Below are positions 36,785 through 62,662 of a DNA stretch of 64,000 nt, one piece after another. Location: positions 2,275,001 to 2,339,000 of the forward strand of contig NZ_JBBOOE010000001.1 of the NCBI RefSeq assembly GCF_038002965.1, in the 5' to 3' direction. The stretch's first letter is position 1. Each line of letters starts with the position of its first letter. The position numbers and the translations under genes were made by a program. The DNA is from Robertmurraya sp. FSL R5-0851 (GTDB lineage: Bacteria; Bacillota; Bacilli; Bacillales; Cytobacillaceae). The notes under the pieces are model-generated. The model searched no databases. It was not told the DNA's origin and worked only from the letters and a program-made list of their open reading frames with translations.

Positions 36785-37987
36785 TCAAATGACACCTTTT
36801 TGATAAAGTTGTATTATTTGTGCGTCGGTAAGCCCTATTTCTTTTAAGATCTGTTCATTATTCTCTCCTAGTTTTGGACCTAACCACTTCACCTGGCCTG
36901 GTGTTTTTGTTAGCTTGGGAACAATTCCTGGAACTTTTATTGTACCTAAATCTGGATGCCTAGCATCTAATATCATCTCTCTCTCTATATATTGAGGATC
37001 TGTCATCATTTCCTCCACACTATAAATTGGGCCTGCTGGAATTCCATTCTTATTTAATATGTCTACACACTCTTGTAAAGGTAGAGTAGAAGACCAACCT
37101 TGGATCATGGAATCAATTAAATCAGCATAAAGTACACGCTTGTCATTTGTAATAAACCTTTCATCGCCAACCAAATCTTCTTTATCTATCACTCTAAGTA
37201 ATCTTTGAAAAACATTATCCCCATTGGCGGCGATAACTACATATGAATCAGCATCCTTTGTTTTATAAATATTTGATGGAACAATTCCTGGAAGGGTTGA
37301 GCCTGTTCGATCCCTTTTAACTCCTGCAAAGTCATAGTCTGGAATCATACTTTCCATCAAACTAAAAATAGATTCGTATAAAGCAACATCAATTTCTTGA
37401 GCTTCTCCCTTATTGACATCACGGTGATAAAGAGCCATTAATATTCCAATGACAGAGTATAATGATGCCACCGAATCTCCTATGCTTATCCCAACCCGTG
37501 TAGGAGGTAATTCAGGGTATCCTGTTAAATATCGTAGTCCTCCCATAGCCTCTCCTATTGCTCCATAACCTGCTCTATCTTTATATGGACCTGTTTGGCC
37601 ATATCCTGAAATGTGACATGTAATTAATTGCGGATTAATTTCCTCTAGTATCTGTTGATCTAATCCCCACTTCGCCAGAGTTCCTGGCCGGAAATTTTCC
37701 ACTAAAATATCACATTCCATTAGTATTTTTTTTATCACCTCATGTCCATCTTCAGTTCGACAATCAATTGCTAGAGACTTTTTGTTTCGAGATTGGATAT
37801 ACCACCATAATGAAGTATCATTATGCATAACCCGCCATTTTCTGATTTGGTCTCCTTGCTTAGGTAATTCAATTTTAATGACATCCGCGCCAAACTCTGC
37901 TAAAATTCTTGTACAGAATGGACCAGCAATCAATGAGCCCATCTCAAGTACTTTAACTCCTTCTAAAGGAAGCTTTTGATTTGCCAT
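36785..37987 (-). CDS. CaiB/BaiF family (class III) CoA-transferase
   Basis: This enzyme moves CoA from a donor such as succinyl-CoA to an organic acid. The N-terminal motif VLEMGSLIAGPFCTRILAEFGADVIKIE and the catalytic-aspartate region around IDCRTEDG and VENFRPGTLAKWGLD are typical. I start at ATG 37987, with AAGGGGGA upstream; the frame to 38008 overlaps the lyase end without a ribosome site. Length is 400 aa. It follows the HMG-CoA-lyase-like gene by 11 bp. In known pathways such a pair acts as succinyl-CoA:citramalate CoA-transferase plus citramalyl-CoA lyase, giving acetyl-CoA and pyruvate; that assignment is inference. Confidence 0.88.
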   Translation of the reverse strand: MANQKLPLEGVKVLEMGSLIAGPFCTRILAEFGADVIKIELPKQGDQIRKWRVMHNDTSLWWYIQSRNKKSLAIDCRTEDGHEVIKKILMECDILVENFRPGTLAKWGLDQQILEEINPQLITCHISGYGQTGPYKDRAGYGAIGEAMGGLRYLTGYPELPPTRVGISIGDSVASLYSVIGILMALYHRDVNKGEAQEIDVALYESIFSLMESMIPDYDFAGVKRDRTGSTLPGIVPSNIYKTKDADSYVVIAANGDNVFQRLLRVIDKEDLVGDERFITNDKRVLYADLIDSMIQGWSSTLPLQECVDILNKNGIPAGPIYSVEEMMTDPQYIEREMILDARHPDLGTIKVPGIVPKLTKTPGQVKWLGPKLGENNEQILKEIGLTDAQIIQLYQKGVI

Positions 37988-37998
37988 ACAATCCCCCT

Positions 37999-38901
37999 TT
38001 ACAGACATTTTGATTTATTCACTTTCCAAATCTGACTATTCAATTGTTTATGAATAAAACCCTCTAGTGTATGAGATGTATTCAGTAGCTTCCTTTTATC
38101 AATACCTGTATTGATTTTCATCTCCTCAAGTAAATCTACTACATCCTCTGTTGATATATTTCCAGTTGCTCCAGGTGCATATGGACATCCACCTAATCCT
38201 CCTATACTACTATCGAAGGAAAATACACCAGCTTGAATTCCAGCCAAAACATTGGCTAATCCTCGACCATAGGTATCATGAAAGTGTAGCTCAAACTCTA
38301 GTTGTTTGAATTCATTCGTTAATTTTGTCATCCATTGATACACTTGAGACGGGTTTGCAACACCAATCGTATCGCATAACCCGACCCTTTTGAATCCAAT
38401 CTTAGCTAGACTCTCAACAATTCCTGCTATACGACCGAATTCGGTCTGACCCTCAAATGGGCATCCAAAAACGGTTGAGACTGAAGCTCTATATAATCTA
38501 TTATCTTTTTGGCAATGCTCTACCAATGAGGAAAGTTCTTTTATAGAATCCTTCGTGCTACGGTTCAAATTCTTTTTACTATGTGAATCAGTTGCTGAAA
38601 GGACAAATGTAATCCCATGTATCCCGATTTTTATTGCCCTTTCATATCCTTTTTCATTTGGCACGAGTGCGAAAAATGTTGCAGATTGTTCCCGAATCCC
38701 ATCGATAACCTCTTCTGCATCCGCAAGATTAGGAATTGCACGCGGATGTACGAAGGATGTAGCTTCAATTTCTTTAAATCCACACTCTACTAACTGCTTA
38801 ATAAGCTCGATTTTATTTTTCGTTTCAAGAAAAGTAGCTTCATTTTGTAAACCATCCCTTGGTCCAATTTCAATAATCTTTATATTTTCAGGTAGTTTCA
38901 T
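37999..38901 (-). CDS. HMG-CoA lyase-like enzyme, possible citramalyl-CoA lyase
   Basis: This TIM-barrel lyase of the HMGL family cleaves a 3-hydroxyacyl-CoA by retro-aldol reaction. The metal/active-site start EIGPRDGLQNE, the conserved HFHDTYGRG segment and the cysteine loop SSIGGLGGCPYAPGATGN are all present. Length (300 aa) is standard. HMG-CoA lyase, for leucine breakdown, and R-citramalyl-CoA lyase share this fold; the tight link to a CaiB-type transferase favours the latter, as in Chloroflexus. It lies downstream of malic enzyme in the aromatic-catabolism cluster. Confidence 0.88.
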   Translation of the reverse strand: MKLPENIKIIEIGPRDGLQNEATFLETKNKIELIKQLVECGFKEIEATSFVHPRAIPNLADAEEVIDGIREQSATFFALVPNEKGYERAIKIGIHGITFVLSATDSHSKKNLNRSTKDSIKELSSLVEHCQKDNRLYRASVSTVFGCPFEGQTEFGRIAGIVESLAKIGFKRVGLCDTIGVANPSQVYQWMTKLTNEFKQLEFELHFHDTYGRGLANVLAGIQAGVFSFDSSIGGLGGCPYAPGATGNISTEDVVDLLEEMKINTGIDKRKLLNTSHTLEGFIHKQLNSQIWKVNKSKCL

Positions 38902-38958
38902 CTTTTATTTCCCGCTCCCCCCCTAAATTTGTACCAATTCACTGAATGGATACAATGT

Positions 38959-40395
38959 TTACTTAGACAAGCGACTATCAATTATTAAAGGATCCTTTCT
39001 CGCCACTTCCGTTTTGTATGCTGCTTTTATTACAGCTTCTCTCACTCTTTCCACAACCTTTTTATTAAACACACTTGGGATAATATAGGATTCATTTAGT
39101 TCATCATCTGTTACAACACTTGCAATCGCCTGTGCTGCAGCGATTTTCATTTCTTCATTAATGATGCGTGCACGGCAGTCAAGTGCTCCTCTAAAAATTC
39201 CAGGGAAACAAAGCACATTATTAATTTGATTAGGATAATCAGAACGTCCTGTTGCCATCACTCTTACATACGGCTCTGCTAATTCTGGATCAATTTCTGG
39301 ATCTGGATTAGCCATCGCAAACACAATTGGGTCACGCGCCATTTTCTTTAAATGCTCAACAGTCAATAGCCCTGGTGCAGAAACACCGATAAATACATCA
39401 GCCCCTTCAATAACATCGGATAGGCTTCCTGTTTCATTGTCAGGGTTTGTAAGCTTCGCAAATTCTGTCCAGCTCGGGTTACGATATTTTTCTCTCCGAT
39501 GGATCGCTCCATTGATATCGACACCAATGATATTTTTCACTCCTGCGCCTAGCAGGATTTTGGCACATGCTGTTCCTGCCGCACCAATCCCAGTCAAAAC
39601 TACCTTAATCTCACTTAGCTTTTTCTCTGTAAGCTTCAAGGCATTAATAAGTCCTGCTAGAATCACGACAGCGGTTCCATGCTGGTCATCATGAAAAACA
39701 GGAATATCAAGCTCTTCCTTTAGTCTTTTTTCAATCTCAAAGCATCTAGGTGAAGAGATGTCTTCTAAATTAATGCCACCAAACGCTGGTGCAATTGATT
39801 TTACAATTTGAATAATTTCTTCGGTATCCTTTGTATCTAGGCAAATCGGAAAGGCATCAACCTCACCCATTTGCTTAAATAGCATTGCTTTTCCTTCCAT
39901 TACTGGCATTGCAGCTAAGGGACCAATATCTCCTAGTCCAAGGACAGCTGTTCCATCTGAAACGACTGCAACTGTATTTCTTTTAATGGTAAGCGAAAAA
40001 GCCTTACTTGGTTCTTCTGAAATAGCTGTACAAACCTTCGCAACACCAGGTGTATATACTCGTGATAGGTCATCACGGTTCTTAATAGGGTTCTTTGATT
40101 GCACTTCAATTTTCCCACCAATATGAAGAAGGAAGGTTCGGTCTGATACAGAAACAACATGAACACCCTCTAAATCTTTCATTTTTTCTGTCATTAGATG
40201 TGAATGCTTTTGGTCATTTACATTAATTGTAATGTCTCGAATTGTATGCGTTTTACTTGAAGAGATAACATCAATCCCAACTATATCGCCACCCATCTCA
40301 CCTATTTCCTTCGCAATATCACTAAATGTAATTAGCATTTTATCAATCTGGATCCTAATTACAATATTCATATTAGAATTATTTACTGTTGACAT
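38959..40395 (-). CDS. Malic enzyme with N-terminal ACT domain
   Basis: Malic enzyme decarboxylates malate to pyruvate with NAD(P). The first ~85 residues form an ACT domain (IVIRIQIDKMLITFSDIAKE, DITINV), an amino-acid-type regulatory module. The catalytic part starts YTPGVAKVCTAI and carries the nucleotide-binding loop LTGIGAAGTACAKI and HDDQHGTA. Length (478 aa) reflects the added ACT domain. GGGAG precedes the ATG. In this cluster it would feed malate, from fumarate or from a maleate-type intermediate, into pyruvate. The ACT ligand is unknown. Confidence 0.93.
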   Translation of the reverse strand: MSTVNNSNMNIVIRIQIDKMLITFSDIAKEIGEMGGDIVGIDVISSSKTHTIRDITINVNDQKHSHLMTEKMKDLEGVHVVSVSDRTFLLHIGGKIEVQSKNPIKNRDDLSRVYTPGVAKVCTAISEEPSKAFSLTIKRNTVAVVSDGTAVLGLGDIGPLAAMPVMEGKAMLFKQMGEVDAFPICLDTKDTEEIIQIVKSIAPAFGGINLEDISSPRCFEIEKRLKEELDIPVFHDDQHGTAVVILAGLINALKLTEKKLSEIKVVLTGIGAAGTACAKILLGAGVKNIIGVDINGAIHRREKYRNPSWTEFAKLTNPDNETGSLSDVIEGADVFIGVSAPGLLTVEHLKKMARDPIVFAMANPDPEIDPELAEPYVRVMATGRSDYPNQINNVLCFPGIFRGALDCRARIINEEMKIAAAQAIASVVTDDELNESYIIPSVFNKKVVERVREAVIKAAYKTEVARKDPLIIDSRLSK

Positions 40396-40550
40396 AAATT
40401 TCTCCCTTACTCTGAAAAAGCTTTACTACACCACATAAATTTGTAGGTTTTTCCGTTTTTTATTCATTGTGCACATAAATTGGCTAAAGGACAGAAGGCT
40501 AATAATGATCATGCATAAAAGATACATGAAGGTATGGAAACCAGCCTAAA

Positions 40551-41801
40551 TCATAAGGTGATCATCTTCTTGTCATTAACCCTCAAAACTAGGAATGAGC
40601 ATACTATTAATATCACGGTACAAATCCATAGGGTAGATAAGTAACTATTGGATTGGCTAAATAAATACCCGGGAATTAATGCTCCAACAGCTGCCCCTAA
40701 TTGATGAAATAACCCAATAACCCCAACTGAAGCACCCATATTATTTACGCCAAAAATGTTCGTACAAAGCATTGTAAATGGTGTAATAGTAGAAATATCT
40801 GTTAAACCATAAAGCAAGGCAAATATTAATAACCAAATTGGTTCATTTAATATAATTAAAACCAAAAGTGCGGTTATTCGAATGCCAAATAAGATGATTA
40901 GCAATCGTTTATTACTAAATATATCGGTCACATATCCGATGGCAATTGTCCCGAGAATATTAAATAATCCATATAGGAGCATTGCATTGGCAATAAATGA
41001 GCGTGAATACTCTCTACTCTCTCCAAAAGGTACTAGATGAGAGTGAATCAATCCTATATCTGTAAATCCGCAAATAAAATTGGCGAGAATAAGCATCCAT
41101 GTGACGGGATAGCGAAAAATAGCGAAAACAGCTGGCTTTAGACTTTTATCTATTTTTTCATCTACCGTCCCTTTACTCAGAAACTTCCCTTCCAAATTTG
41201 GCTGGTCTTTAAAAAACAATAAATATAGTGGGAGTAGGACACATGCATATATACCTCCGTATAATACAAATAAAAGCTTCCAGCCAATTTTATCGATAAG
41301 AACGATATTTAACGGGGTATAAATCATTGGACCAGCAGCCATACCGACTACTACTATACTAATCATTAACCCCTTCTTCTCCTTAAACCATTTGACAATA
41401 GCCACTGAGACAGTAATGTATGAAGCAAGCCCAAATCCTATCGAACCTATGAATCCGTATAAAATGATCATATGCCACAGTTCCGTTACATAGTAGGAAC
41501 CCAATAAACAAATACTCAAAAATACCATGCTATAGGATAAAACCTTTCTAGGACCAATCCTATCTACTAATCTTCCTGCAAGCATCATGCTAAATCCATA
41601 TATAAATAGACTAATAAATGAAACAACACTTACCATAAAACGATTTACGGAGAAAGTCTGTTCCCACGGTGTCGTGTAGGTACCAAATGACCCTCGGATT
41701 CCCATCGCTGCAAATAATGCAAGAAAAGATAAAGCAACAATAATATAGCCATAATTGAATTTACCCTGTTTTTTTGGATAAATAACCGTAGTCTTTTCCA
41801 T
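40551..41801 (-). CDS. MFS transporter, OFA/monocarboxylate-like
   Basis: This is a 12-helix major-facilitator transporter. The first loop shows GRLVDRIGPRKVL, the MFS signature between helices 2 and 3. Helices 1-6 and 7-12 are separated by a charged loop near residue 200. Length is 416 aa. The layout is typical of oxalate/formate-antiporter-like or monocarboxylate permeases, so it likely carries a carboxylate related to the pathway. It begins 9 bp after BenE, with a ribosome site at the BenE stop. Which acid it moves is unknown. Confidence 0.82.
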   Translation of the reverse strand: MEKTTVIYPKKQGKFNYGYIIVALSFLALFAAMGIRGSFGTYTTPWEQTFSVNRFMVSVVSFISLFIYGFSMMLAGRLVDRIGPRKVLSYSMVFLSICLLGSYYVTELWHMIILYGFIGSIGFGLASYITVSVAIVKWFKEKKGLMISIVVVGMAAGPMIYTPLNIVLIDKIGWKLLFVLYGGIYACVLLPLYLLFFKDQPNLEGKFLSKGTVDEKIDKSLKPAVFAIFRYPVTWMLILANFICGFTDIGLIHSHLVPFGESREYSRSFIANAMLLYGLFNILGTIAIGYVTDIFSNKRLLIILFGIRITALLVLIILNEPIWLLIFALLYGLTDISTITPFTMLCTNIFGVNNMGASVGVIGLFHQLGAAVGALIPGYLFSQSNSYLSTLWICTVILIVCSFLVLRVNDKKMITL

Positions 41802-41810
41802 TTGTGTCTA

Positions 41811-43037
41811 TTATCCCTCCTTTACCTGTAGTTCTTGCTTCCTTTCTATGAAATTAGCAATTAGCGCTCCTCCTGCCAAAGCCCAGACAGGAGAACTGAT
41901 ATAGAAAATGGTTATATTCGATAAAGCTATTACAAAGGTAAAGGTGACACTCAACACCATTTTCGGTTGGGAGAAGCTAAGGTTTAAGCTCGTTCCTAAA
42001 ACACCAAACAAAGCCAATCCAGCTAGAAGTGATACAAAATCTTTTGGTAAAGATTGAATAAACGGAACAATTAGCCAAGCAAATATTCCAAAACACATAA
42101 GTAACACCCCTGATAGAACGGCTCCGACATATCTTTTTTCTCTTGGACCTGAGTCTTTGCCACTACAAATAGCTGACATCATACCGGCAACATTAGCCGA
42201 CTGACCACCAAAGAAATTTGTGATTAGTGAAAAGATACCGCTTACCGTGATAATTCGATTAATCGGCGGGTGGTAATTGTTTTGTCCTAATGCTCCAATA
42301 CCAGGAGCTGCATCATTACTTAATATTAATAACGAAAGTGGAACAGAAATAGCTAATATACTTAACCAACTGAATTCAGGTAGTTGTATCGTTGGTATGA
42401 CAAACGGCATACTAGCTCCTGCACTTCCAATACCATTTGTTACTAATAGCATGATAAACGCAGCAAACACAGCTGCAATAACAGGTGGTATTCTCCATTT
42501 CCATTTAGAAAAAAGAAGGAAAACTAGTAATGCCACTCCCCCAATTAGCGGAAGGTTTTGTACAGACACAATCAATCTCACAACATAACTCGTTATAATC
42601 CCCGCCATCATTGCCGAGATTATTTCTTTTGGAACATATTTCATAAGTTTAGAAAATAAGCCCAGTAGTCCGACTAAAAGGATAATTAAACTAGAAATAA
42701 GGTAGCTTCCAACAAGTTGCTGATAAGAGAATTGTCCTGTCATTGTTGCTAAAAAGGCAACTCCTGTAATAGAGTGTGCACCCACAATTGGCATCCTGTA
42801 GTAAATGGGTAAAATAATACTAAATAATCCACCGAAAAAATAGACAGAGAACATCCAAAGTATGGTTTGCTCATTTGAAAAGTTCCCGTTTGCGGCTGCT
42901 TGCAAGATTATGACAGGAGGACCTGTTGCTGCCAGTAAGCCAGAAACAATTCCTGATGATAGGTTGTTTGAATTAATCATTTTGGATAGCTTACCTTTCG
43001 TAGATACATGTAACGGTTTGAGCTCTGTATTTCTCAA
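41811..43037 (-). CDS. benE: BenE family benzoate-type transporter
   Basis: BenE proteins import benzoate and related aromatic acids with protons. About 10-12 membrane segments are visible, with the family's AATGPPVIILQAAANG and MPIVGAHSITGVAF stretches in the first third and NDAAPGIGALGQNNYHPPIN near the middle. Length is 408 aa. The start is TTG 43037, supported by AGGAGG 7 nt upstream. It lies between the Liv-type ABC genes and the MFS gene, behind a hairpin at 43076-43103. Its presence argues that the substrate or an intermediate is an aromatic acid. Confidence 0.88.
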   Translation of the reverse strand: MRNTELKPLHVSTKGKLSKMINSNNLSSGIVSGLLAATGPPVIILQAAANGNFSNEQTILWMFSVYFFGGLFSIILPIYYRMPIVGAHSITGVAFLATMTGQFSYQQLVGSYLISSLIILLVGLLGLFSKLMKYVPKEIISAMMAGIITSYVVRLIVSVQNLPLIGGVALLVFLLFSKWKWRIPPVIAAVFAAFIMLLVTNGIGSAGASMPFVIPTIQLPEFSWLSILAISVPLSLLILSNDAAPGIGALGQNNYHPPINRIITVSGIFSLITNFFGGQSANVAGMMSAICSGKDSGPREKRYVGAVLSGVLLMCFGIFAWLIVPFIQSLPKDFVSLLAGLALFGVLGTSLNLSFSQPKMVLSVTFTFVIALSNITIFYISSPVWALAGGALIANFIERKQELQVKEG

Positions 43038-43103: not shown

Positions 43104-43123
43104 AACCATCATTATTTATTAAA

Positions 43124-44365
43124 TTATTTAAGGTAATCGGCTGTGTAGAACTCCACTTGTTTAAATTCTCCTGAAATAACCTCCATTAGGGCGTAGCTTG
43201 CTATAACATTACCATGATCATCAAAATCAATAGGTCCTGATGCACCTTGATAGTTTATGTCATTTCCAGCTCTTAACTCTTTAATTCCATCCTCAAAAGT
43301 TGATACTTCTTTCCCAGGAGGATTTGTAACTTCACGGATTTTCTCATTAATAGCCTCTCCACTCGCTTCACCTGCTGCTTCCATTGCTAAAGCAGAAGCA
43401 ATTAACAGATCATACGTGTTTGCGTTGTAATACCCACTAGAAGGTTTAGCATTGAATCTTGCTTCATAGCTTTCGTTGAAACGTTTAAATGCTTCATTGT
43501 TTTCATCCTCCATTGGTATAATGGTTTTGATGCCCTCAGCAACATCCTGCCCAATTACATCAATGAACTCCTGTACAGCCACGTCTGGTGTTACATACCA
43601 ATCCCATTCATAGCCTCTTTGTTTAGCTGATTTAAAAATGGTTGGAGCAGTATCAATCCCGCCAGAGTAATAAACTACTTTCGGGTTTGCATTTGCAATA
43701 TTTTTTAATTCCCCATTGTACGTGTTTTGTCCTGGGTTAAAGGTAACCTCTTCTAGAACTGTTCCACCAAGGCTTTCAAACATTTCGCGGAACTTCTCAA
43801 CATCACTTTGAGCTCCTTCATAATTTCCTACCATTACCGCTATTTCTTTAATTCCTGCATCAATTAATACCTGTGCTCTCACTTCACCAATTGTGGAATC
43901 AGATGCCGCAGTACGGAATGCATAATTACCACCAACTTCATCTAGCTCTGTCGATCCTGCAAAGGCAGACATAATTGGCACCTTAGATTTTGGAGCTTCC
44001 TTCAATAAAGCTAGCATCGACTCTGTTTCAGGCCCAATCGCCACAACAGCTTTATCTGCATTTACTAGCTTTTGATATCCTTTTATAGCTCCTTCAACCG
44101 TTGAAGCTGTGTCCACGTCTACCGTTTTAATTTTCTTCCCATCAAGAATTCCGCCAGCCTCATTTATTTCTTCCTTAGCCAAAACGAAAGCATTAATATT
44201 TTCCTTTGTAAAAGCACCTAACCAACCGGTTAATCCGGAAAGGAATCCTACATTTATTTCTTCTCCTCCACTCGAGCCTGAATCCCCTCCTGTTGAACTA
44301 GAACATCCAGTCATAATAGCTAAGGTGGCACAGATTGAAAGCGAAGCTACTTTGAATTTTTTCAT
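43124..44365 (-). CDS. Branched-chain amino-acid-type ABC transporter binding lipoprotein
   Basis: This extracytoplasmic receptor of the Liv/HAAT family has a signal peptide ending in lipobox IMTGC (cysteine about residue 21) and a periplasmic-binding-type-I fold with EINVGFLSGLTGWLGAF. Family members bind branched-chain amino acids, amides, urea or aromatic acids. Length is 413 aa. GGGGGGA precedes the ATG. Unusually it is the last gene of the liv set. In this cluster an aromatic acid is the more likely ligand than leucine, by context only. Confidence 0.9.
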   Translation of the reverse strand: MKKFKVASLSICATLAIMTGCSSSTGGDSGSSGGEEINVGFLSGLTGWLGAFTKENINAFVLAKEEINEAGGILDGKKIKTVDVDTASTVEGAIKGYQKLVNADKAVVAIGPETESMLALLKEAPKSKVPIMSAFAGSTELDEVGGNYAFRTAASDSTIGEVRAQVLIDAGIKEIAVMVGNYEGAQSDVEKFREMFESLGGTVLEEVTFNPGQNTYNGELKNIANANPKVVYYSGGIDTAPTIFKSAKQRGYEWDWYVTPDVAVQEFIDVIGQDVAEGIKTIIPMEDENNEAFKRFNESYEARFNAKPSSGYYNANTYDLLIASALAMEAAGEASGEAINEKIREVTNPPGKEVSTFEDGIKELRAGNDINYQGASGPIDFDDHGNVIASYALMEVISGEFKQVEFYTADYLK

Positions 44366-44377
44366 TTGATTTCCCCC

Positions 44378-45082: not shown

Positions 45083-45084
45083 TA

Positions 45085-54416: not shown

Positions 54417-54486
54417 ACAACAACCTCCTATTTTGTTCGAAAAATTAATAATTTTCAATCTTTTGATTATAGATCTTACTTTTTAA

Positions 54487-55455
54487 CTAGTTTGCTTTCA
54501 TTAGAAGTTCTTCCACCATTAAACCAGCCTGGTTTGCTAGCTTTTCAACAGCCTCTGTAGAAACTAAATCCACTCCGATTAAGACGATAGAATGGTAATT
54601 CTCACCATTTTGAAACAGTTCCCACGAAATTTGATTACCAGCAAGCTGAACTAAATACATATCCCCTTCCTCTAGTAATACAAAGCCCTTAGCTCGAACT
54701 AGATTCGGTTTTAGACTTTCTAAATAGTTCTCTATGAAACGTTTCGTAACGGGAAATGGTATAGGGACGGCGACCGTTGATAAATAGTTAAAGGATAAAC
54801 CCATTGGATCGTCTTCAATTCTTCCAAAAGTGCTCTTTTTTTCCTCAATAAAACTATTAGCAAGGAAAAGCTGTTCTAACTGGATTTGACTATAAGAAGT
54901 AAAAGTCAATTCCGCTGAAGGATTCATTTTATTAATCATCCTTCTCAATTCTTCTACTAAAAAAGAGTCAATAAGGTCCATTTTATTTACTATTACTAGA
55001 TCCGCTATAGATAATTGTTTCTCACAGGTATGACGGAGCACTGGATGGTTCATATTGCTATTAAGGTTCAATGCATCAACCACTGTAACGACTTTGTTCA
55101 AATAAACCTTAGCGATAATCTCCTTTTTTTCCATTTCCATGATCACTTCATGAGGTTCAGCAACTCCTGTAAGTTCTACATAAATTACATCTGGCTTTGT
55201 TTTCAGGAGTATCTCAAAACTTTTGATAATTTCACTCTTTTTACTACAACACACACATCCATCAAGTATTGTTTCAACACTTGTTGAATGTTTATCAGCA
55301 ATAATATGGCCATCTATATCAACTTGACCAATCTCATTGATTAAGATGCCAACATTCAACCCTTCTTGTTTCGATTGATCAAGTATTTGCGTTAATAAAG
55401 TTGTCTTTCCACTTCCTAAAAATCCACTGAGGAGTATCACAGGTATACGATCCAA
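54487..55455 (-). CDS. CobW/COG0523 family GTPase metallochaperone
   Basis: COG0523 GTPases hand zinc, iron or cobalt to target proteins. The Walker A motif is GFLGSGKTT, the metal-binding CxCC motif reads GCVCCSKKS, and NKMD supplies guanine specificity. A C-terminal CobW domain follows from about residue 210. Length is 322 aa. The start is TTG 55455 with AGGGGGTG upstream. Lying between the oxygenase and maturation genes, it may deliver metal to the Rieske oxygenase, the zinc dehydrogenase or the lyase; the specific client is not known. Confidence 0.88.
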   Translation of the reverse strand: MDRIPVILLSGFLGSGKTTLLTQILDQSKQEGLNVGILINEIGQVDIDGHIIADKHSTSVETILDGCVCCSKKSEIIKSFEILLKTKPDVIYVELTGVAEPHEVIMEMEKKEIIAKVYLNKVVTVVDALNLNSNMNHPVLRHTCEKQLSIADLVIVNKMDLIDSFLVEELRRMINKMNPSAELTFTSYSQIQLEQLFLANSFIEEKKSTFGRIEDDPMGLSFNYLSTVAVPIPFPVTKRFIENYLESLKPNLVRAKGFVLLEEGDMYLVQLAGNQISWELFQNGENYHSIVLIGVDLVSTEAVEKLANQAGLMVEELLMKAN

Positions 55456-55657: not shown

Positions 55658-56140
55658 TTAAAATAGAAAACTTAAATTACCAAGAAATTCATTATTATTA
55701 ATTAACTCCACCTTTTTTGAAGCTATTTTCCAGGTTGTATCAGTCTGTTTTAAATGATGTTCAAGTCTACCTGAATAAATGGTTTGAATACTACGTCTTA
55801 GTTCTACAAGGATAAAATTAGATGTGACAATAACCTTGTCTTCCTCACAGTGTAGAACCTTGACGTTTGTGACTAGATGTCTAGTTCTTGATTTAGGCTC
55901 CTGACCATAAGCCAATCCACTTTGTAATCTCCAAACCCGCTCTTCTAACCGGTTTTTATCATCATAGATAATCGAGACATGTGTATTTGGATCAATATCA
56001 TCTTGATTAGATGGAATCCAGTAAAAGCTATCCTCTGTAAATAAATCTAACCACTCACTAAATTTTCCCTCATCCAAATACGCTGCTTCATCAATAAGAA
56101 ACTCCTCAATCTGCTTACGGTCTACCAACAGTTGGCTCAT
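55658..56140 (-). CDS. Ring-hydroxylating dioxygenase beta subunit
   Basis: This small structural subunit of a Rieske oxygenase has the NTF2-like fold: EEFLIDEAAYLDEGKFSEWLDLFTEDSFYWIP and SKSRTRHLVTNVKV-like strands (here KSRTRHLVTNV). I start at ATG 56140, with AAGGGGGA 7 nt upstream; the longer frame to 56173 has no ribosome site. Length is 160 aa. It overlaps the end of the alpha subunit gene by 26 bp. Alpha and beta form the hexameric or trimeric oxygenase. Confidence 0.9.
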   Translation of the reverse strand: MSQLLVDRKQIEEFLIDEAAYLDEGKFSEWLDLFTEDSFYWIPSNQDDIDPNTHVSIIYDDKNRLEERVWRLQSGLAYGQEPKSRTRHLVTNVKVLHCEEDKVIVTSNFILVELRRSIQTIYSGRLEHHLKQTDTTWKIASKKVELINNNEFLGNLSFLF

Positions 56141-57338
56141 GCTTCTTCCCCCTTGTTTCAACATTTGAATCATCTGCTGTCATTAGTTTTTTCCAGGCTT
56201 TATAAAGCGCCCTTGCTGATACTTCATCACTTGAAGTGGCTGTGATAATTCCTTTTTCATCCACTTCTTCTCTTTCCAAGCCACGGCTGATTTCAAGCCA
56301 TTCGCCATCCTTTCCTTTTGCATTCAGACCCTCCATTACCCGGTCAAATCCCACTTCCAGATCATCAACCGTTCCGAATCCAGCTGGGCCATAAAACCCT
56401 TCATGTTTTCTTAAACGGGCTGCATTCTCTTCCACTGAAGCTCCTTTTAACATAATTGGATATAAAAATACATTCGTTTTGTTTACAGACACAGGCCATG
56501 TAACCCGCACTTGTGAACCTAAGAAGCCTAGGTTAGGGAAAACAATTAAATTAAACGGTAATGCACCAATTCCAAGATCACCATCTAATTCATATAATGA
56601 ATGCCCATTTCCTAAATCTCGAATTTTCTCGTTTTTATGCATCTTAGAAAAATTAATTTTCTTCCCTGTTTTTTTACTCATCAGGTTAAAGAAGCTTCTA
56701 TGTGTAACACTTAAGTGATAAGGATCGATCGTATTTTCAACTTGCAATTTCCAATTACCATCAAATCGATATTTATGTGCACCAGCATTTAAACTAATCC
56801 CTTCTGGACAAGTATTTACAACATAGTCAATATACGGGCGTGCGTTTCCTAGATGTTCTTCTAATGTAGGACCTTCCTCACTTAGACTAGCGAAAATAAA
56901 GCCTTGATATATACCAACTCTAGGTACTTTAATTAATCCCATTTTGCAACGATCAAACTCCTCACCGTAACCATCCTGGAAAGGCATACCTGTTAAATCA
57001 CCGTTATTTGAATATGTCCAGCCATGATAAGCACATCTGAAATAGTTCGCATTCCCTTTTTCCTGTTGGCAGACTGTTGCAGCTCGATGCCTACAACGAT
57101 TAAACACCACATGTACTTCATCCGTATCGGAATCCCTTGTAACAATAAGAGGATGCGTACCAATGACAGTTGTTTTATAATCTCCTGAGTTAGCAATTTC
57201 ACTTTCATGCCCTACGTAAACCCAGGTTTTCTCAAAGATGCTTGTCATCTCTTGCTTAAAAATTTCTTCATCAGTATAAATATCTCCGTGAACTGCCGTA
57301 TCCTTGATATACTGCGTAATGTTTTCTGAATTGATCAT
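56115..57338 (-). CDS. Ring-hydroxylating dioxygenase alpha subunit (Rieske, non-heme iron)
   Basis: This is the catalytic subunit that adds both atoms of O2 to an aromatic ring. The Rieske [2Fe-2S] ligands are in NRCRHRAATV (C82, H84) and FRCAYHGW (C102, H105). The mononuclear iron site is in DPYHLSVTH (H208, H213), with D205 as the bridge for electron transfer. I start at ATG 57338, because GGAAGGG lies 8 nt upstream. Length (407 aa) is at the short end for benzoate- or anthranilate-type oxygenases. It follows the dehydrogenase gene after 5 bp. No reductase or ferredoxin gene is found in the window, so electrons must come from elsewhere. The substrate is unknown. Confidence 0.92.
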   Translation of the reverse strand: MINSENITQYIKDTAVHGDIYTDEEIFKQEMTSIFEKTWVYVGHESEIANSGDYKTTVIGTHPLIVTRDSDTDEVHVVFNRCRHRAATVCQQEKGNANYFRCAYHGWTYSNNGDLTGMPFQDGYGEEFDRCKMGLIKVPRVGIYQGFIFASLSEEGPTLEEHLGNARPYIDYVVNTCPEGISLNAGAHKYRFDGNWKLQVENTIDPYHLSVTHRSFFNLMSKKTGKKINFSKMHKNEKIRDLGNGHSLYELDGDLGIGALPFNLIVFPNLGFLGSQVRVTWPVSVNKTNVFLYPIMLKGASVEENAARLRKHEGFYGPAGFGTVDDLEVGFDRVMEGLNAKGKDGEWLEISRGLEREEVDEKGIITATSSDEVSARALYKAWKKLMTADDSNVETRGKKHEPTVGRP

Positions 57339-57343
57339 ATCCT

Positions 57344-58444
57344 TCACCCTTCCATCTTTATGTTTTCATTTACCACAGCTACATGTATACACTGATCTAG
57401 ACCATATGCATGCGTCCTAACTGCTTCAGCAGCCTCTTCTACTGAGAAACTATGAGTTACCATTTTTTCAAGTGGATACCTTCTCGACTCTATCACTCTT
57501 AGTGCGACTCCAACTGCACGTGTTGGACGACCAAGTACTCCCTTTATCGTTAAAAGCTTCCACGTGATTTTACTAGACATTAGATTATTAGATAGATTTT
57601 CATCAGTACCTGAATGAATAATTGTTGCGCGTAAGCCAGCCAAATCTAATGATGTGACAATTTGCTGTGGTGCTGTGGCTGCATTTATTACTGTATCGGC
57701 CATATTTCCGTTCGTAACTGCAGCTATTTCCTTTACAAGATCTTGGGTATCTGCATAAAACGTGTGATCTGCACCGAATTCTTTCGCAAGCTTTAAGCGA
57801 TGTTCATCCTTTGACATTCCTGTAACGATGATGGTTCCGGCCCCAGCTTCCTTTGCTCCAATTACAGCCCCTAATCCCATAGGACCAGGTCCTTGAATAA
57901 CTACTGTATCTCCTACCTTTGTGTTTCCTACCTCTTGTACCCAATGTAATCCATTTGAAATCGGAATGTATAGCTGTAGTAATTCTGGGGAAACATCACT
58001 ACTTGCTTTATGGACGATCGCATTTGGATGAAGATACATATATTCAGCAAATCCACCCCATAGGGCTGTTTTCTCATTATCAATTTTCATCGCTCCATAT
58101 CGAATGTCAAAGCATTGACGATAGTTTCCGGTTAAGCAATTATTACATGCACCACATGGAATGTACTCCTCTACCACTACCCGATCCCCTTCTTTGACAC
58201 CCCAGCGTTTTGATGCAACAGAACCAATATTTTTAATTCGACCAACGATTTCATGTCCAATGACACATGGTAGATTAAAGACACCATTTCCTCCATATAA
58301 ATAGGCTTCACTGTCAAACCCACATACTCCACAGGCCTCCACATGAAGAAGCGCATCATTGTCACCAGTTTCTGGAATGGGAAATTCCATGATTTCTATC
58401 GTTTCTTTACCTGTTAATACAGCTGCTTTTGATGTTTGAGTCAT
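57344..58444 (-). CDS. Zinc-dependent medium-chain alcohol dehydrogenase
   Basis: This MDR-family NAD(P)-dependent dehydrogenase could oxidise a cis-dihydrodiol or alcohol made by the oxygenase. The catalytic zinc site uses CGVCGFD and GHEIVG; the structural zinc site is CGACNNCLTGNYRQC; the cofactor loop is GPGPMGLGAV. Length is 366 aa. AAAGGGG precedes the ATG. It lies between a 75-aa unknown gene and the oxygenase genes, in one transcript. Most cis-dihydrodiol dehydrogenases are short-chain enzymes, so a medium-chain one in this position is unusual. Confidence 0.88.
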   Translation of the reverse strand: MTQTSKAAVLTGKETIEIMEFPIPETGDNDALLHVEACGVCGFDSEAYLYGGNGVFNLPCVIGHEIVGRIKNIGSVASKRWGVKEGDRVVVEEYIPCGACNNCLTGNYRQCFDIRYGAMKIDNEKTALWGGFAEYMYLHPNAIVHKASSDVSPELLQLYIPISNGLHWVQEVGNTKVGDTVVIQGPGPMGLGAVIGAKEAGAGTIIVTGMSKDEHRLKLAKEFGADHTFYADTQDLVKEIAAVTNGNMADTVINAATAPQQIVTSLDLAGLRATIIHSGTDENLSNNLMSSKITWKLLTIKGVLGRPTRAVGVALRVIESRRYPLEKMVTHSFSVEEAAEAVRTHAYGLDQCIHVAVVNENIKMEG

Positions 58445-58493
58445 TTTTTTACCCCTTTATTTATTATTTTGTTGAGCTATAAGCTTTGTGCTA

Positions 58494-58721
58494 TTATTCC
58501 TCATCATCTATTTCATTGATCCAGCGAGTTTTGGAGGGATCTAGTAAATTAGTAAGATCCTTGTGAGTACTCCATAGTAAACTCTCCAATTCCAAGGGAT
58601 CAAAGAACGAGATTTTTCCTGTACGGATATCCTTTATCATTAGCCGGTCACCATTGGCAGATTTATCAACTTGAACTACCACATGTGCAAATTCGTTTTT
58701 AAGCACTACACTTTTATCCAT
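58494..58721 (-). CDS. Small unknown protein of 75 aa, first gene of the oxygenase transcript
   Basis: I do not recognise this family. The protein reads as a compact beta-rich domain, VLKNEFAHVVVQVDKSANG then DRLMIKDIRTGKISFFDP, and an acidic C-terminus (INEIDDEE). There are no cysteines, so it is not a ferredoxin, and no signal peptide. AGGTGACA precedes the ATG. It is the promoter-proximal gene behind a palindromic operator and TATAAT box, 49 bp before the dehydrogenase gene. Its position suggests a regulatory or oxygenase-assisting role; some databases attach the name dihydrodiol dehydrogenase to such small proteins, but the size rules out a full enzyme. Confidence 0.7.
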   Translation of the reverse strand: MDKSVVLKNEFAHVVVQVDKSANGDRLMIKDIRTGKISFFDPLELESLLWSTHKDLTNLLDPSKTRWINEIDDEE

Positions 58722-58746
58722 CCATTGTCACCTACTTTCAAACGTC

Positions 58747-58785: not shown

Positions 58786-58840
58786 CTGCCGTAAAAAAAA
58801 TGAAATAATAATACTGTTCACCTTGCAATTAAATTTCCTA

Positions 58841-59488
58841 TTATGATAAAAAATTAAGAAATCTGTTAAGCTCTGACTCTATATGACCTTTCATACAAGC
58901 CTCTGCTATTTCCTCTTTTCCTGATTCAAGAGAATAAATGATTTTCTGATGCTCGATTAAATAATCATCATTTTGGTGGAAATGAACTAATCTAGCATTC
59001 GTATAATACATAAATAGCCCAGATAAACTTGCATATAAATCGATCAGTGTTTGATTTTTTGATGCTTGAACAATAGTTTCATGAAACATTGTATTGTATT
59101 TAAGTACATTTTTTTGATCATTTACAAAAGAAACCTTCTTTGCCATTTCAAATATCTCATTTAAATGCGCCAGCTGTCTTGCTGTAATATTTTTTACAGC
59201 AAGGATCGCTGCTAGGGCCTCTATCGCAAGCCGACACTTATACACATCCTCTATATCTTTACTTGTAAATTTACGTATGATCTTATGGTTACCCTCTTTT
59301 TTTATTAATCCATCTTGTTCTAATAATCGAATGGCTTCTCTAATTGGACTTCTGCTCACACCAAGATTTTCAGCTAGAGAAGCTTCTATAACCGGTTCAC
59401 CAGGACAAAAAACACCATCGATAATTTTTTTTCTTAACACTTTATATACTTGAACATGAAGTGGAGAATTCTTTTCAATTTTCTTCAT
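58841..59488 (-). CDS. GntR-family regulator, FadR/FCD subfamily
   Basis: This is a DNA-binding repressor with an N-terminal winged helix (VYKVLRKKIIDGVFCPGEPV, then LAENLGVSRSPIREAIRLLEQDGL) and a C-terminal FCD domain of helices that binds organic acids with a metal (histidines in MFHETIVQ and GHIESELN). I start at ATG 59488, with AAAGGG upstream, rather than the GTG at 59497. Length is 215 aa. It sits between the TRAP genes and the oxygenase genes and faces a palindromic operator, so it most likely controls this cluster in response to the substrate or an intermediate. Confidence 0.9.
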   Translation of the reverse strand: MKKIEKNSPLHVQVYKVLRKKIIDGVFCPGEPVIEASLAENLGVSRSPIREAIRLLEQDGLIKKEGNHKIIRKFTSKDIEDVYKCRLAIEALAAILAVKNITARQLAHLNEIFEMAKKVSFVNDQKNVLKYNTMFHETIVQASKNQTLIDLYASLSGLFMYYTNARLVHFHQNDDYLIEHQKIIYSLESGKEEIAEACMKGHIESELNRFLNFLS

Positions 59489-59540
59489 TATAATCACCCT
59501 TTATCATTCCATCCTTATTATCATCCTTCTTACAGTTTTT

Positions 59541-60821
59541 TTATGAACCATATACTATAGTTGGTAATAGCATCGAAATAATTGGGATAAAAGTTATGAT
59601 TAGAAGTGCTACAAATGTTACCCAAAAAAATTGCATTAAGCCTGGAAGCATTTCATTCATCTTTAAGCGGGTTATACTGTTTGCAACGAAGATGTTTAAA
59701 CCGAATGGTGGAGTAAATGTTCCTATTGCTAAGTTCAGTACCATTACAATCCCGAGATGAATAGGATCTATACCTAGTGTGGTTGCACTAGAAAGAATTA
59801 ATGGAGCGATAACAATTAAAGCAATGGTTGAATCTACAAACATTCCGATAAGGAGAAGCGATAAATTTAAAAAGATTAGAAATGTCCATGGAGATGTAAA
59901 GGTTTCTGCTACAAATCCTGCGAGCATATGAGGTGCCTGACCTATAGTAAGGACCCAACCTAAGGCAGAAGCTGCAGCAACTAATATCATTACTTGTGCA
60001 GATGTTTTTGCTGAATCAAGACTTAACTGAAATAGCTTTTTCCATGTTATCTCTTTATAGACAAACAGCCCAACAAAGATTGCATAGATTGCTGATACAC
60101 CAGCTGCCTCTGTCGGAGTGAATATTCCAAAGGATATACCACCAATAATGATGAGAGGGACTGCTAAAGACCAAGATGCTTCTTTAATAGCTTTGTAGAT
60201 TTCCCTTGAAGAAGAACGCTCGCCTCTTGGGAATTTTTTGAATCTTGAATAAAGATAGATATATAGAAGAAGGAAAACACCGAAAAATACGCCTGCACCT
60301 AAACCAGCTAAAAATAATGAGCCCACAGATGTATTTGTTGCACTAGCATACAAGATAATGGTAATACTAGGTGGGATTACTAATGATACTGCACCAGATT
60401 GAATAATAAGGCCACTAGCGAATTTTTTCGGGTATCCCTGCTTTAAAAGCTCTGGATACATTATTCTGCCTATCGCAATTACGGTGGCAGGACTAGATCC
60501 TGATAAAGCACCGAAAAACATTGCTGCTGTTTGTGTGGCCATTGCCATACCACCATATAAATGACCAACAAGTGCCCTTGCAAAATTTAATATTCTCCTC
60601 GATAACCCTCCTACATCCATTGCATTTGCTGCTAGAATAAAGAATGGTAACGCCATAAGTACAAATTTATCAATCCCCCCAAAGATTCTTTGAACTGCAA
60701 CCATTGAATCTATATCGGTAAAGAATATAAGAGACAAAAAGGTACTCAAAATTAATGATATGTATATTGGTACACCTAAAAGTAGCATCGCAAATAAGAG
60801 AACAATAATAGCAACTAACAT
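59541..60821 (-). CDS. dctM: TRAP transporter large permease, DctM
   Basis: This 12-helix membrane subunit carries out sodium-coupled transport of a carboxylate captured by DctP. Typical segments are FAMLLLGVPIYISL at the start, GALSGSSPATVIAIG near residue 105 and SLVIPPSITIILY near 155. Length (426 aa) is normal. AAGGAG precedes the ATG. It follows dctQ after 12 bp. The nature of the carboxylate is not readable from this subunit. Confidence 0.93.
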   Translation of the reverse strand: MLVAIIVLLFAMLLLGVPIYISLILSTFLSLIFFTDIDSMVAVQRIFGGIDKFVLMALPFFILAANAMDVGGLSRRILNFARALVGHLYGGMAMATQTAAMFFGALSGSSPATVIAIGRIMYPELLKQGYPKKFASGLIIQSGAVSLVIPPSITIILYASATNTSVGSLFLAGLGAGVFFGVFLLLYIYLYSRFKKFPRGERSSSREIYKAIKEASWSLAVPLIIIGGISFGIFTPTEAAGVSAIYAIFVGLFVYKEITWKKLFQLSLDSAKTSAQVMILVAAASALGWVLTIGQAPHMLAGFVAETFTSPWTFLIFLNLSLLLIGMFVDSTIALIVIAPLILSSATTLGIDPIHLGIVMVLNLAIGTFTPPFGLNIFVANSITRLKMNEMLPGLMQFFWVTFVALLIITFIPIISMLLPTIVYGS

Positions 60822-60833
60822 ATATCTGACTCC

Positions 60834-61310
60834 TTAATTTGGTGTATTTAATAAGTCTTTTCTACGAAACAAATGAACTAGCAGCTGGATGTATCTAATG
60901 ACCAATAAACAACCTGAAAGAGGAATGATTAGGTATACGATTGAAAAATTGATTCCTAATCCTGAACTCTTTTGCCCTGTTTGTGAACTGAAATCAACCA
61001 ACAGGTAACTATACCAAACCAACATAAAGCTAAATATGATTGCTACTACATAAATAATTGCCATGAGGAGCTTATATGATTTCCCTTTTAGTAGTTGGGG
61101 TATAAACTCAATACTCATATGTTCACTTTCTCTAGCACATACACTCATTCCAACAAATGTTACCCATATTAAGAGATAGCGAATTAATTCTTCTGACCAA
61201 ATTAAACCCGATCCCATTACCCTAAGAATGACATTTACTATTACCAGCAAGGTAGCTATCAATATGCTCATTGCTATAAATATATCTTCAATTCTATTTA
61301 GTATTTTCAC
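60834..61310 (-). CDS. dctQ: TRAP transporter small permease, DctQ
   Basis: This four-helix subunit bridges DctP and DctM. Membrane helices are visible near residues 12-30, 45-60, 85-105 and 125-145, with SEELIRYLLIWVTFVGMS as the conserved segment. The start is GTG 61310, with GGGGGATACTA upstream. Length is 158 aa. It is separated from dctP by 290 bp that contain a MITE-like element. Confidence 0.88.
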   Translation of the reverse strand: MKILNRIEDIFIAMSILIATLLVIVNVILRVMGSGLIWSEELIRYLLIWVTFVGMSVCARESEHMSIEFIPQLLKGKSYKLLMAIIYVVAIIFSFMLVWYSYLLVDFSSQTGQKSSGLGINFSIVYLIIPLSGCLLVIRYIQLLVHLFRRKDLLNTPN

Positions 61311-61419
61311 TAGTATCCCCCCATCGGATTTTCGTGTAACAACCTTAAAAAAATAAAGGAGAAATTAGGGTTACTCTTAACTCGTAGGTATTATGTTTTG
61401 AGTTTCCCTAATTTTCAAT

Positions 61420-61564
61420 AGCTGTTTTCTAGTAGATTATTGTTTTTGAGGTGATTATATTGATTGGAATTTAGGAGTGTGACTCCTGCACCGCAGAAAG
61501 CACACACCTGGAGTTTCAATCAACCTACCTTAGTTAAATAGCAACAAAGGTTACGAAACAGCCT
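61420..61564. repeat. MITE-like element with a degenerate Bacillaceae intergenic repeat inside
   Basis: Left end AGCTGTTTTCTAGTAGATTA and right end (minus strand AGGCTGTTTCGTAACCTTTG) are imperfect inverted repeats of the family at 24798-24983. Inside, TTGATTGGAATTTAGGAG, GACTCCTGC and CACCTGGAGTTTCAATCAAC look like a shortened form of a repeat widespread between Bacillaceae genes. No ORF is present. It splits dctP from dctQM. Confidence 0.6.
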
Positions 61565-61600
61565 TTTCTATAAATCCATAGATTAAACAAGAAATACTAG

Positions 61601-62662
61601 TTATTGAATTCCTAATTCTTTATAAATGATGTCTAATAGCTCCTTTTTCTCAGGGGTATTGCTAAATTCTTTGTGCAAAGGTAAGGATAATTCCACAAAT
61701 TCGTTTCTTTGTTCTTCAGAAAGTGTATGAACTTCAAGTCCTAGTTCTGGAAATTCTTTTATTCGAGTGTCTGACATTTCCTGTGTTAAATCACGGGCAT
61801 AGATTCTTGATTCTTCTTCAGATTCCATAATGATTTGTTGGAACTCCGGACTTAATCCATTAAACCAATCAAGGTTAGCTACAATCATATAAAATTGGTA
61901 GCCATGTTCAGTTATTGATAAATGGTCCTGGACCTCATAGAGTTTGTTAGAACTAATTGTTTCTAATGGGTTTTCCTGTGCATCAACGACCCCTTGCTGC
62001 AAGGCATTATATAGCTCCGCAAATTCAATAGGTACAGGATTTGCTCCGTATGTTTCATATGTTTTAATTAAAATCTCAGAAGGTATAACTCTCATATTTT
62101 TCCCACTTAAATCTGAGGGAGTAAGGATAGGGTCACCTTTACTTGTCATTGACTTAAAGCCCCCTGCCCAAAAACCAAATCCCTTAAATTTAACTGCCTC
62201 GAGATGATCTAATGCTTTTGTACCTGCCTCCCCTGATAATACCTCCCAAATCTGATCCTCATTATTAGGCCATAAGAATGGATATTCAAAAACTTGAAGA
62301 GTTTCTGCATTAAAGGAGGTAACAGTTGAAAGCAATGTTTGGGTCATATGTATGGTACCTAGTTGAACCTGTTCTGTTTGCTCTCTTATTGCACCTAGCT
62401 GAAGGTTCGGATATAATTCTACTTTAATTTTCCCTTCCGATTTTTCCTCGACAAGCTCCTTGAATTTTTCAGCACCTACTGTTAATGGATGATCTGGTGG
62501 AGTCATACCTGCCAATTTAATCGTTAGACTTTCTGCTTGACTACCTGTATTTTCATTCCCAGCACCTGTGGTAGATGATGAATTGCCACATCCGGTTAAA
62601 AATAGGATTAGAATGAGTGTAAGACTAACTATTTTAGGGTAACTAAGCTTTATTCTCTTCAT
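61601..62662 (-). CDS. dctP: TRAP transporter solute-binding lipoprotein, DctP
   Basis: This receptor of a TRAP transporter captures an organic acid outside the cell. The signal peptide ends in a lipobox LFLTGCGNSS, and the mature protein has the DctP fold with TPPDHPLTVGAEKFKELVEE, IRVIPSEI-like strands (here MRVIPSEIL) and the key arginine in that strand for the carboxylate. EFAELYNALQQGVVDAQENP is conserved. Length is 353 aa. GGGAGGA precedes the ATG. It is the first gene of the catabolic cluster, behind three palindromes and an IS110-type element. Confidence 0.92.
   Translation of the reverse strand: MKRIKLSYPKIVSLTLILILFLTGCGNSSSTTGAGNENTGSQAESLTIKLAGMTPPDHPLTVGAEKFKELVEEKSEGKIKVELYPNLQLGAIREQTEQVQLGTIHMTQTLLSTVTSFNAETLQVFEYPFLWPNNEDQIWEVLSGEAGTKALDHLEAVKFKGFGFWAGGFKSMTSKGDPILTPSDLSGKNMRVIPSEILIKTYETYGANPVPIEFAELYNALQQGVVDAQENPLETISSNKLYEVQDHLSITEHGYQFYMIVANLDWFNGLSPEFQQIIMESEEESRIYARDLTQEMSDTRIKEFPELGLEVHTLSEEQRNEFVELSLPLHKEFSNTPEKKELLDIIYKELGIQ

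Follow-up and report, generated by a model that had tools for sequence, protein, structure and literature searches.

Biochemical work on the nicotinate route of Bacillus is said to have begun with Ensign and Rittenberg in 1964. In Rhodococcus rhodochrous PY11, a dioxygenase and a dehydrogenase of the hpo pathway reportedly yield 2,3,6-trihydroxypyridine, and the cyclase route of this strain is said to lead to 2-ketoglutaramate; PicA, of the Gram-negative pic pathway, is a molybdenum (Mo) hydroxylase. Excerpts of the published accounts describe a dioxygenase step on 2-hydroxypyridine in PY11, a precedent for dioxygenation of the pyridine ring (PMC6525221); ring opening between carbon and nitrogen, by a cyclase, in hpo-type pathways, and between carbons of 2,3,6-trihydroxypyridine in Bacillus (PMC9304392); and, in the pic and nic pathways, a Mo hydroxylase and then a maleamate amidase and a maleate isomerase that lead to fumarate (PMC10142695). 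In 2014 the genes of the Bacillus nicotinate route were unknown, and Harvey and Snider proposed as a candidate cluster a 13-gene contig of Bacillus niacini DSM 2923 with nicF- and nicE-like genes, a Mo oxidoreductase pair, and TetR and IclR regulators, leaving the ring-opening step unassigned (PMC4256190). Here we describe a catabolic cluster in a 64,000-nucleotide (nt) stretch of Robertmurraya sp. FSL R5-0851, the whole of which we call the window. The cluster is a variant of this partly known route; what is new is an upper half made of a Rieske oxygenase and a zinc (Zn)-dependent alcohol dehydrogenase (Zn-ADH), and a concrete gene candidate for ring opening, DUF3891.

Gene content and proposed pathway

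The cluster lies on the minus strand at 36785-62662 and holds 25 genes of at least 100 amino acids (aa) together with a 75-aa open reading frame (ORF). The gene set runs on past the end of the window, behind an IS110 copy and still on the minus strand, into stretch L083 (position p of L083 is window position p + 59999). The cluster is real and larger than the sequence-only reading had described: the genes do share one strand, but there are 25 rather than 24, and, although every gene then named is present, a GntR/FCD regulator and the 75-aa ORF had been missed. All named genes matched strongly in a Pfam search of the window ORFs. The genes central to the argument are as follows.

58494-58721, minus strand: conserved 75-aa ORF adjoining the Rieske genes (NEFA...DPLELE pattern)
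57344-58444, minus strand: Zn-ADH, proposed dihydrodiol dehydrogenase (Pfam)
56115-57347, minus strand: Rieske oxygenase alpha subunit, RoA (Pfam)
55658-56173, minus strand: Rieske oxygenase beta subunit, RoB (Pfam)
52589-53377, real start probably 53344, minus strand: MaiA, maleate cis-trans isomerase of Asp/Glu-racemase type (match to PDB 4fq7)
51671-52552, minus strand: CoxM, flavin adenine dinucleotide subunit of the Mo hydroxylase (Pfam)
51195-51674, minus strand: CoxS, 2Fe-2S subunit (Pfam)
48826-51180, minus strand: CoxL, Mo subunit (Pfam; motif PYRGAGR near residue 369)
L083 4746-5555, outside the window, minus strand: DUF3891
L083 5552-6262, outside the window, minus strand: isochorismatase-type amidase
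L083 6274-6669, outside the window, minus strand: DsrE-like protein
L083 6751-7344, outside the window, minus strand: TetR regulator

We consider it reasonably probable that this cluster degrades a pyridine monocarboxylic acid to fumarate by way of ring cleavage by DUF3891, with picolinate the likeliest substrate and nicotinate the next; we infer the substrate and every enzyme activity, including the roles of Zn-ADH and DUF3891, from sequence. The acid would be taken up by BenE, Liv, and TRAP transporters, and the CoxMSL hydroxylase would act on the ring carbon adjoining the nitrogen to give 6-hydroxypicolinate. Rieske alpha/beta would then dihydroxylate C2-C3, at the carboxyl-bearing carbon, and Zn-ADH would oxidise the dihydrodiol to 2,3,6-trihydroxypyridine, releasing CO2. 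With O2, DUF3891 would cleave the C2-C3 bond to N-carboxymaleamate, and loss of CO2 would leave maleamate, which the amidase would split into maleate and ammonia; MaiA would convert maleate to fumarate, and fumarase and malic enzyme would take fumarate to pyruvate. XdhC, MocA, CoxG, and CobW would serve cofactor assembly. If C2 leaves as CO2, no deformylase is needed.

Picolinate and nicotinate fit because the scheme ends at 2,3,6-trihydroxypyridine after one Mo hydroxylation and a Rieske/decarboxylating dehydrogenation. BenE, of the Pfam benzoate transport family, also favours an aromatic monocarboxylic acid, since it is present in seven of the nine clusters of the order described below (none was seen near that of genome G123, and the flank in G004 was left out). 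We found no relevant paper on picolinate and Bacillus in the open-access literature searched. A classical benzoate-type route was considered and rejected: the 25 genes include no ring-cleavage dioxygenase, and a maleate isomerase and an amidase are there instead.

At the level of proposed reactions, the locus shares with the hpo pathway a dioxygenase and a dehydrogenase that lead to 2,3,6-trihydroxypyridine, but has no cyclase, with MaiA and the amidase in its place. It shares with pic and nic the Mo hydroxylase and the isomerase, and would share the maleamate amidase; those pathways, however, pass through 2,5-dihydroxypyridine and use a 5,6-dioxygenase (NicX/PicD) and a deformylase, and neither gene is in the present cluster. 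No description of the Rieske-containing combination was found in the open-access literature searched, so that the statement of the sequence-only reading that no such Bacillus pathway had been described stands for the upper half; it does not stand for the lower half, which has its counterpart in the B. niacini nicotinate candidate cluster.

Enzymes of the cluster

RoA has a Rieske Cys2His2 site and a 2-His iron site with bridging Asp, and RoB belongs to Ring_hydroxyl_B; together they have the make-up of an alpha plus beta Rieske aromatic-ring dioxygenase. Residues C85, H87, C105, H108, D208, H211, and H216 of RoA are invariant across 28 aligned sequences. Its C-terminal tail of ~15-19 aa is absent from aligned relatives, accounts for the 59-nt overlap of the alpha and beta genes (56115-56173), and possibly arose through a lost stop codon; the start may lie a few codons inside the called one. 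No dedicated ferredoxin or reductase gene is among the 25 cluster genes, the remaining genome not having been searched for one; such redox partners do not belong to the oxygenase proper. The cluster of G123 has a pyridine-nucleotide-disulphide-type flavoprotein, and one Pseudonocardia cluster a similar protein with Reductase_C. The G093 cluster has two Rieske beta genes (L156 10747-11226 and 14946-15425) and a single alpha. Elsewhere in our genome (L114, C1:1758000-1770000), another Rieske alpha/beta pair, at 29% and 32% identity, lies with TRAP genes among what are presumably meta-pathway genes.

The 75-aa ORF is matched in 38 of the best 80 Rieske alpha loci, in several phyla. It has no Pfam match at E <= 1 and no NCBIfam match at E <= 0.01, and its AlphaFold2 (AF2) model, with a predicted local distance difference test score (pLDDT) of 83.4, has no fold match at E <= 0.001. 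It may represent a helper protein or small subunit of this Rieske family that has so far escaped notice.

MaiA matches PDB 4fq7, 'Maleate cis-trans isomerase', with 299 bits over residues 14-262, which bears out the maleate-isomerase-like enzyme of the sequence-only reading and places MaiA among the maleate isomerases. The amidase has an isochorismatase domain and scores 98 bits against 3ot4/3uao, which we take to be NicF (maleamate amidohydrolase), 133 against the N-carbamoylsarcosine amidohydrolase 26st, and 117 against 4l07. An aspartate ammonia-lyase gene adjoins the cluster of Neobacillus niacini F8 (L165 3420-4844), which fits fumarate and ammonia as products. Elsewhere in our genome, ~12 kb before the window, a further Mo hydroxylase stands in locus L108 (C1:2250000-2269000: CoxL, CoxS, CoxM, CoxG, MocA, XdhC, an acyl-CoA ligase, an enoyl-CoA-hydratase-type protein, and BenE; CoA, coenzyme A), which we take to resemble a furoate (hmf) cluster.

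Conservation across genomes

Relatives were found by a scan with Rieske alpha, of which the best 80 loci were used; the co-occurrence sample is therefore biased and the distribution non-exhaustive. Counts for the order refer to nine genomes, our own included (G000-G004, G093, G116, G123, and G429; G154 is the same as G003, G126 as G004, and G465 as G001, which is Peribacillus saganii), within the stretches fetched, and two of the nine belong to families other than Bacillaceae. Genes of relatives were called by a simple ORF picker and may be missed or misplaced. Rieske alpha matched in 9 of 250 relatives at 1e-60, our own included, six of them at 1e-180 or better; among the matches listed, identity is 81%-86% in P. 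saganii and three N. niacini strains. In the phylum of G006, one genome of 396 matched at 1e-95, G006 itself.

All nine genomes of the order have RoA, RoB, the 75-aa ORF, CoxM, CoxS, CoxL, CoxG, DUF3891, the amidase, DsrE, and Zn-ADH, the last clustered with the Rieske genes in each of them and in both of two Pseudonocardia loci. MaiA and CobW are found in eight (both are missing from G429), and malic enzyme in three of the nine clusters, those of G123 and G093 among them, as well as in one N. niacini nicotinate-type cluster. By one of its own criteria, the sequence-only reading would have been refuted if no relative conserved the gene order; P. saganii, three N. niacini strains, and G116 retain the order Zn-ADH, RoA, RoB, CobW, CoxG, MaiA, CoxM, CoxS, CoxL. 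Outside our genome, MocA precedes MaiA only in P. saganii, not in the N. niacini strains. A TetR-DsrE-amidase-DUF3891 block stands upstream of the cluster in the P. saganii and N. niacini loci, while G123, G093, and G429 have the same genes grouped in other orders. The two Pseudonocardia loci bring together MaiA, CoxSML, amidase, Zn-ADH, RoA, RoB, DUF3891, and the 75-aa ORF in ~11 kb at 29%-52% identity; neither contains DsrE.

Since the genes stay together, though rearranged, in two phyla, they very probably act in one process. The conserved gene set and order also support the earlier proposal of a single pathway for an N-heteroaromatic acid, with two oxidative attacks and a maleate end. A chance neighbourhood was rejected on the synteny.

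That these are unrelated neighbouring operons, or an aerobic carbon monoxide (CO) dehydrogenase beside a Rieske operon, is barely credible. Intergenic gaps of 86-290 nt within the cluster would allow the former, and several of them (DctP-DctQ 290, RoB-CobW 202, MFS-malic enzyme 155) make it possible that the cluster spans more than one transcript; against separate functions stand the order conserved across genera and the same genes found together in Pseudonocardia. As to the latter, the best NCBIfam name for CoxL is indeed aerobic CO dehydrogenase, but at 776 bits against a cut-off of 950. CoxL of CO dehydrogenases carries the active-site motif AYRCSFR with its Cys; ours has PYRGAGR, without that Cys, and with scores below the NCBIfam cut-offs we rejected this assignment.

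A lower module shared with the nicotinate candidate cluster of N. niacini

Locus L109 of N. niacini NBRC 15566, which we take to be the type strain DSM 2923, contains XdhC, CoxG, CoxM, CoxS, two CoxL, a flavin monooxygenase, DUF3891, MaiA, DsrE, amidase, and GntR, flanked by what are presumably LysR and IclR genes. The lower genes are the same as in our cluster, with identities of 47% for DUF3891, 73% for MaiA, 62% for DsrE, and 70% for the amidase, putatively of NicF type, and both have a Mo hydroxylase with XdhC and CoxG. The upper halves differ: ours has a single CoxL, the Rieske oxygenase, and Zn-ADH, whereas L109 has a pair of CoxL and the flavin monooxygenase. This monooxygenase reaches 972.7 bits against PDB 8uiu along its entire length of 429 aa (self-score 972.5). 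According to a 2024 study, the B. niacini flavin monooxygenase reportedly hydroxylates 2,6-dihydroxynicotinate or 2,6-dihydroxypyridine; such a 2,6-dihydroxy substrate would yield 2,3,6-trihydroxypyridine. The gene content of L109 fits the nicotinate candidate contig of Harvey and Snider, although no TetR gene was found in L109, unlike that contig (PMC4256190).

In N. niacini, strains F8 and NBRC 15566 carry the Rieske cluster as well as the nicotinate-type locus, and in both strains each locus includes lower genes of its own. P. saganii has nicotinate-type genes at C7:68-77 kb (CoxG, CoxM, CoxS, two CoxL, one of them 88% identical, and a flavin monooxygenase, 86%), and no DUF3891, DsrE, amidase, or MaiA is found in the 19 kb fetched around them. 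Its genome has one DUF3891, in the Rieske cluster ~18 kb away, and a second MaiA elsewhere. Unless they are idle, the nicotinate-type genes of P. saganii must use the lower module of the Rieske cluster, and the two routes would therefore probably meet at one intermediate. Similar borrowing in G093 was rejected, since a Cyclase-family protein and a nitrilase-type amidase stand there: locus L166 of this genome pairs them with a nicotinate-like Mo hydroxylase pair, which suggests a 2-ketoglutaramate branch.

The same pathway might have nicotinate as its substrate, with CoxMSL giving 6-hydroxynicotinate and the Rieske oxygenase and Zn-ADH leading straight to 2,3,6-trihydroxypyridine in place of the second Mo hydroxylase and the flavin monooxygenase. 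The lower module in common with the nicotinate candidate cluster speaks for this, and the Rieske cluster could stand in for the nicotinate-type genes in our genome (where neither the nicotinate-type monooxygenase nor the nicotinate-type CoxL has a close copy), G004, G116, G123, and G429, all without a nicotinate-type CoxL above 45%. We nevertheless regard nicotinate as unlikely and rank picolinate first, because the presence of both upper modules in N. niacini F8, N. niacini NBRC 15566, and P. saganii speaks for two substrates.

DUF3891 as candidate for ring cleavage

Two different upper modules with one lower module narrow the ring-opening step to DUF3891, perhaps with DsrE: these are the proteins left over for it in both kinds of cluster. 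The Pseudonocardia loci, which have DUF3891 and lack DsrE, favour the former, and DUF3891 is the best candidate for the ring-cleavage enzyme. It scores 409-452 bits in the clusters of the order, 236-238 in the Pseudonocardia loci, and 75-134 elsewhere. At 1e-20 it occurs in 128 of 397 genomes of the order, three at 443 bits or more (our genome, G429, and P. saganii) and the other 125 at 75-134. In two loci read (L142 and L145), such ordinary copies share one neighbour, which we take to be a YjbQ-like gene.

Of 26 aligned rows (two unrelated ORFs of L117 excluded), 23 retain H18, H50, D51, H81, H106, and D176, including all rows from such clusters; the other three comprise two ordinary N. niacini copies, which have K at 81, and the more distant P0177, which has T there. 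DUF3891 thus carries the H...HD...H...H...D ligand set of the HD-domain mixed-valent diiron oxygenases. As excerpted, the literature describes MIOX, PhnZ, and TmpB as sharing this set and cleaving C-C or C-P bonds with no external reductant (PMC8177086). The AF2 model (pLDDT 92.8; predicted template modelling score 0.90) has structural matches of low score and uniform kind, PhnZ and TmpB among them, and would fit a metalloenzyme with a putative HD fold; Foldseek alone gave no significant match. On the other hand, no sequence similarity to MIOX, PhnZ, or TmpB was found, the DUF3891 profile matched three PDB sequences, at best with an E of 0.1, the YxxE loop of PhnZ and TmpB is not seen by eye, and the known substrates of these enzymes are a cyclitol and phosphonates. 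No mention of DUF3891 was found in the open-access literature searched.

DUF3891 may instead be a hydrolase. A pyrrole carboxylate could be oxidised to maleimide, which DUF3891, as a metal-dependent imide hydrolase, would convert to maleamate; maleamate and pyrrole both have four carbons. The same type of DUF3891 is, however, found in the N. niacini nicotinate candidate cluster, which concerns a six-membered ring, and we hold this route to be very improbable.

NicX, the ring-cleavage enzyme of the 2,5-dihydroxypyridine routes (our query scores 330 bits against 7cn3, '2,5-dihydroxypyridine 5,6-dioxygenase'), has no match at E <= 0.001 in our genome, none in N. niacini F8 or NBRC 15566, and at best 27% identity in P. 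saganii. In N. niacini AT2.8, locus L141 has NicX, an alpha/beta hydrolase, amidase, MaiA, and an HpaB-type monooxygenase without DUF3891, probably a 2,5-dihydroxypyridine route.

Several observations limit the case for ring cleavage by DUF3891 in this pathway or weigh against it. The argument from convergence comes from one genome, P. saganii. An ordinary-score DUF3891 copy of Pseudonocardia (L117) keeps all six ligands, and in one Pseudonocardia locus a LigB-type dioxygenase lies 5 kb from DUF3891. Janibacter sp. Soil728 (G007), one of 12 genomes chosen for carrying Rieske alpha and checked for DUF3891, has CoxGSML, Zn-ADH, RoA, RoB, and the 75-aa ORF but lacks DUF3891; ~26 kb from this upper module lie a NicX-like gene and MaiA. 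The upper module therefore need not always feed DUF3891.

Transport, accessory, and peripheral genes

The remaining genes in and beside the cluster are as follows.

63051-64000, cut by the window end, minus strand: IS110 transposase, 447 aa (whole gene L083 3052-4395, reaching 394 bases beyond the window)
61601-62662, minus strand: TRAP binding protein DctP (Pfam DctP, 269 bits), also present in the P. saganii, G093, and G429 clusters
60834-61310, minus strand: TRAP small permease DctQ (Pfam)
59541-60821, minus strand: TRAP large permease DctM (Pfam)
58841-59497, minus strand: GntR/FCD regulator (Pfam)
54487-55455, minus strand: CobW GTPase (Pfam)
53973-54458, minus strand: CoxG (Pfam)
53317-53970, minus strand: MocA-like (MobA-like) molybdenum cofactor cytidylyltransferase (TIGR03310, 161 bits, cut-off 186)
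47669-48730, minus strand: XdhC maturation factor (Pfam)
43124-47650, minus strand: Liv-type ABC transporter, with two permeases, two ATPases, and a binding protein (Pfam)
41811-43037, minus strand: BenE-family transporter (Pfam BenE, 244 bits)
40551-41801, minus strand: MFS transporter (Pfam)
38959-40395, minus strand: malic enzyme (Pfam)
37999-38901, minus strand: HMGL-type lyase, peripheral, not conserved here (Pfam)
36785-38008, minus strand: CaiB-type CoA transferase, peripheral, not conserved here (Pfam)

The last two genes bear on the citramalate-type lower-pathway enzymes of the sequence-only reading, a part that is not sustained. On this alternative the substrate would be a methylated N-heteroaromatic acid, whose methylmaleate would be isomerised, CaiB and HMGL cleaving citramalyl-CoA to acetyl-CoA and pyruvate. 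The two genes do lie directly beside the cluster, share its strand, and overlap each other by 10 nt, and loci L139 and L140, in P. saganii and N. niacini AT2.8, bring together CaiB, aconitase-type large and small subunits, HMGL, and MaiA. These are, however, separate loci that look like a methylmaleate/citramalate-type pathway of their own, the window cluster has no hydratase pair, and CaiB and HMGL occur in one of eight clusters, our own (the downstream flank in G004 being left out), and are absent from the fetched flanks of all seven others of the order. A methylated substrate thus appears improbable.

The shared strand is unremarkable, because 21 of the 26 ORFs of at least 100 aa listed over window positions 1-34000 are also on the minus strand. 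Promoter-like sites are fewer than in shuffled sequence (40 against 60.0 and 24 against 38.7), and terminator-like sites fall inside the shuffled range, near the expectation (10 against 11.8 and 8 against 6.4). Rfam gave no match at the gathering threshold, and ARAGORN no tRNA.

Implications

It is possible, though we propose it tentatively and at less than even odds, that pathway-type DUF3891 fills the gap left in the nicotinate route of Bacillus by the missing gene for splitting 2,3,6-trihydroxypyridine between carbons. It would then be the first HD diiron oxygenase to open a heteroaromatic ring, and the Rieske cluster a parallel entry for another pyridine acid into this shared ring-cleavage module. 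If true, this would add pyridine-ring cleavage to the HD superfamily and give a function to the DUF3891 family.

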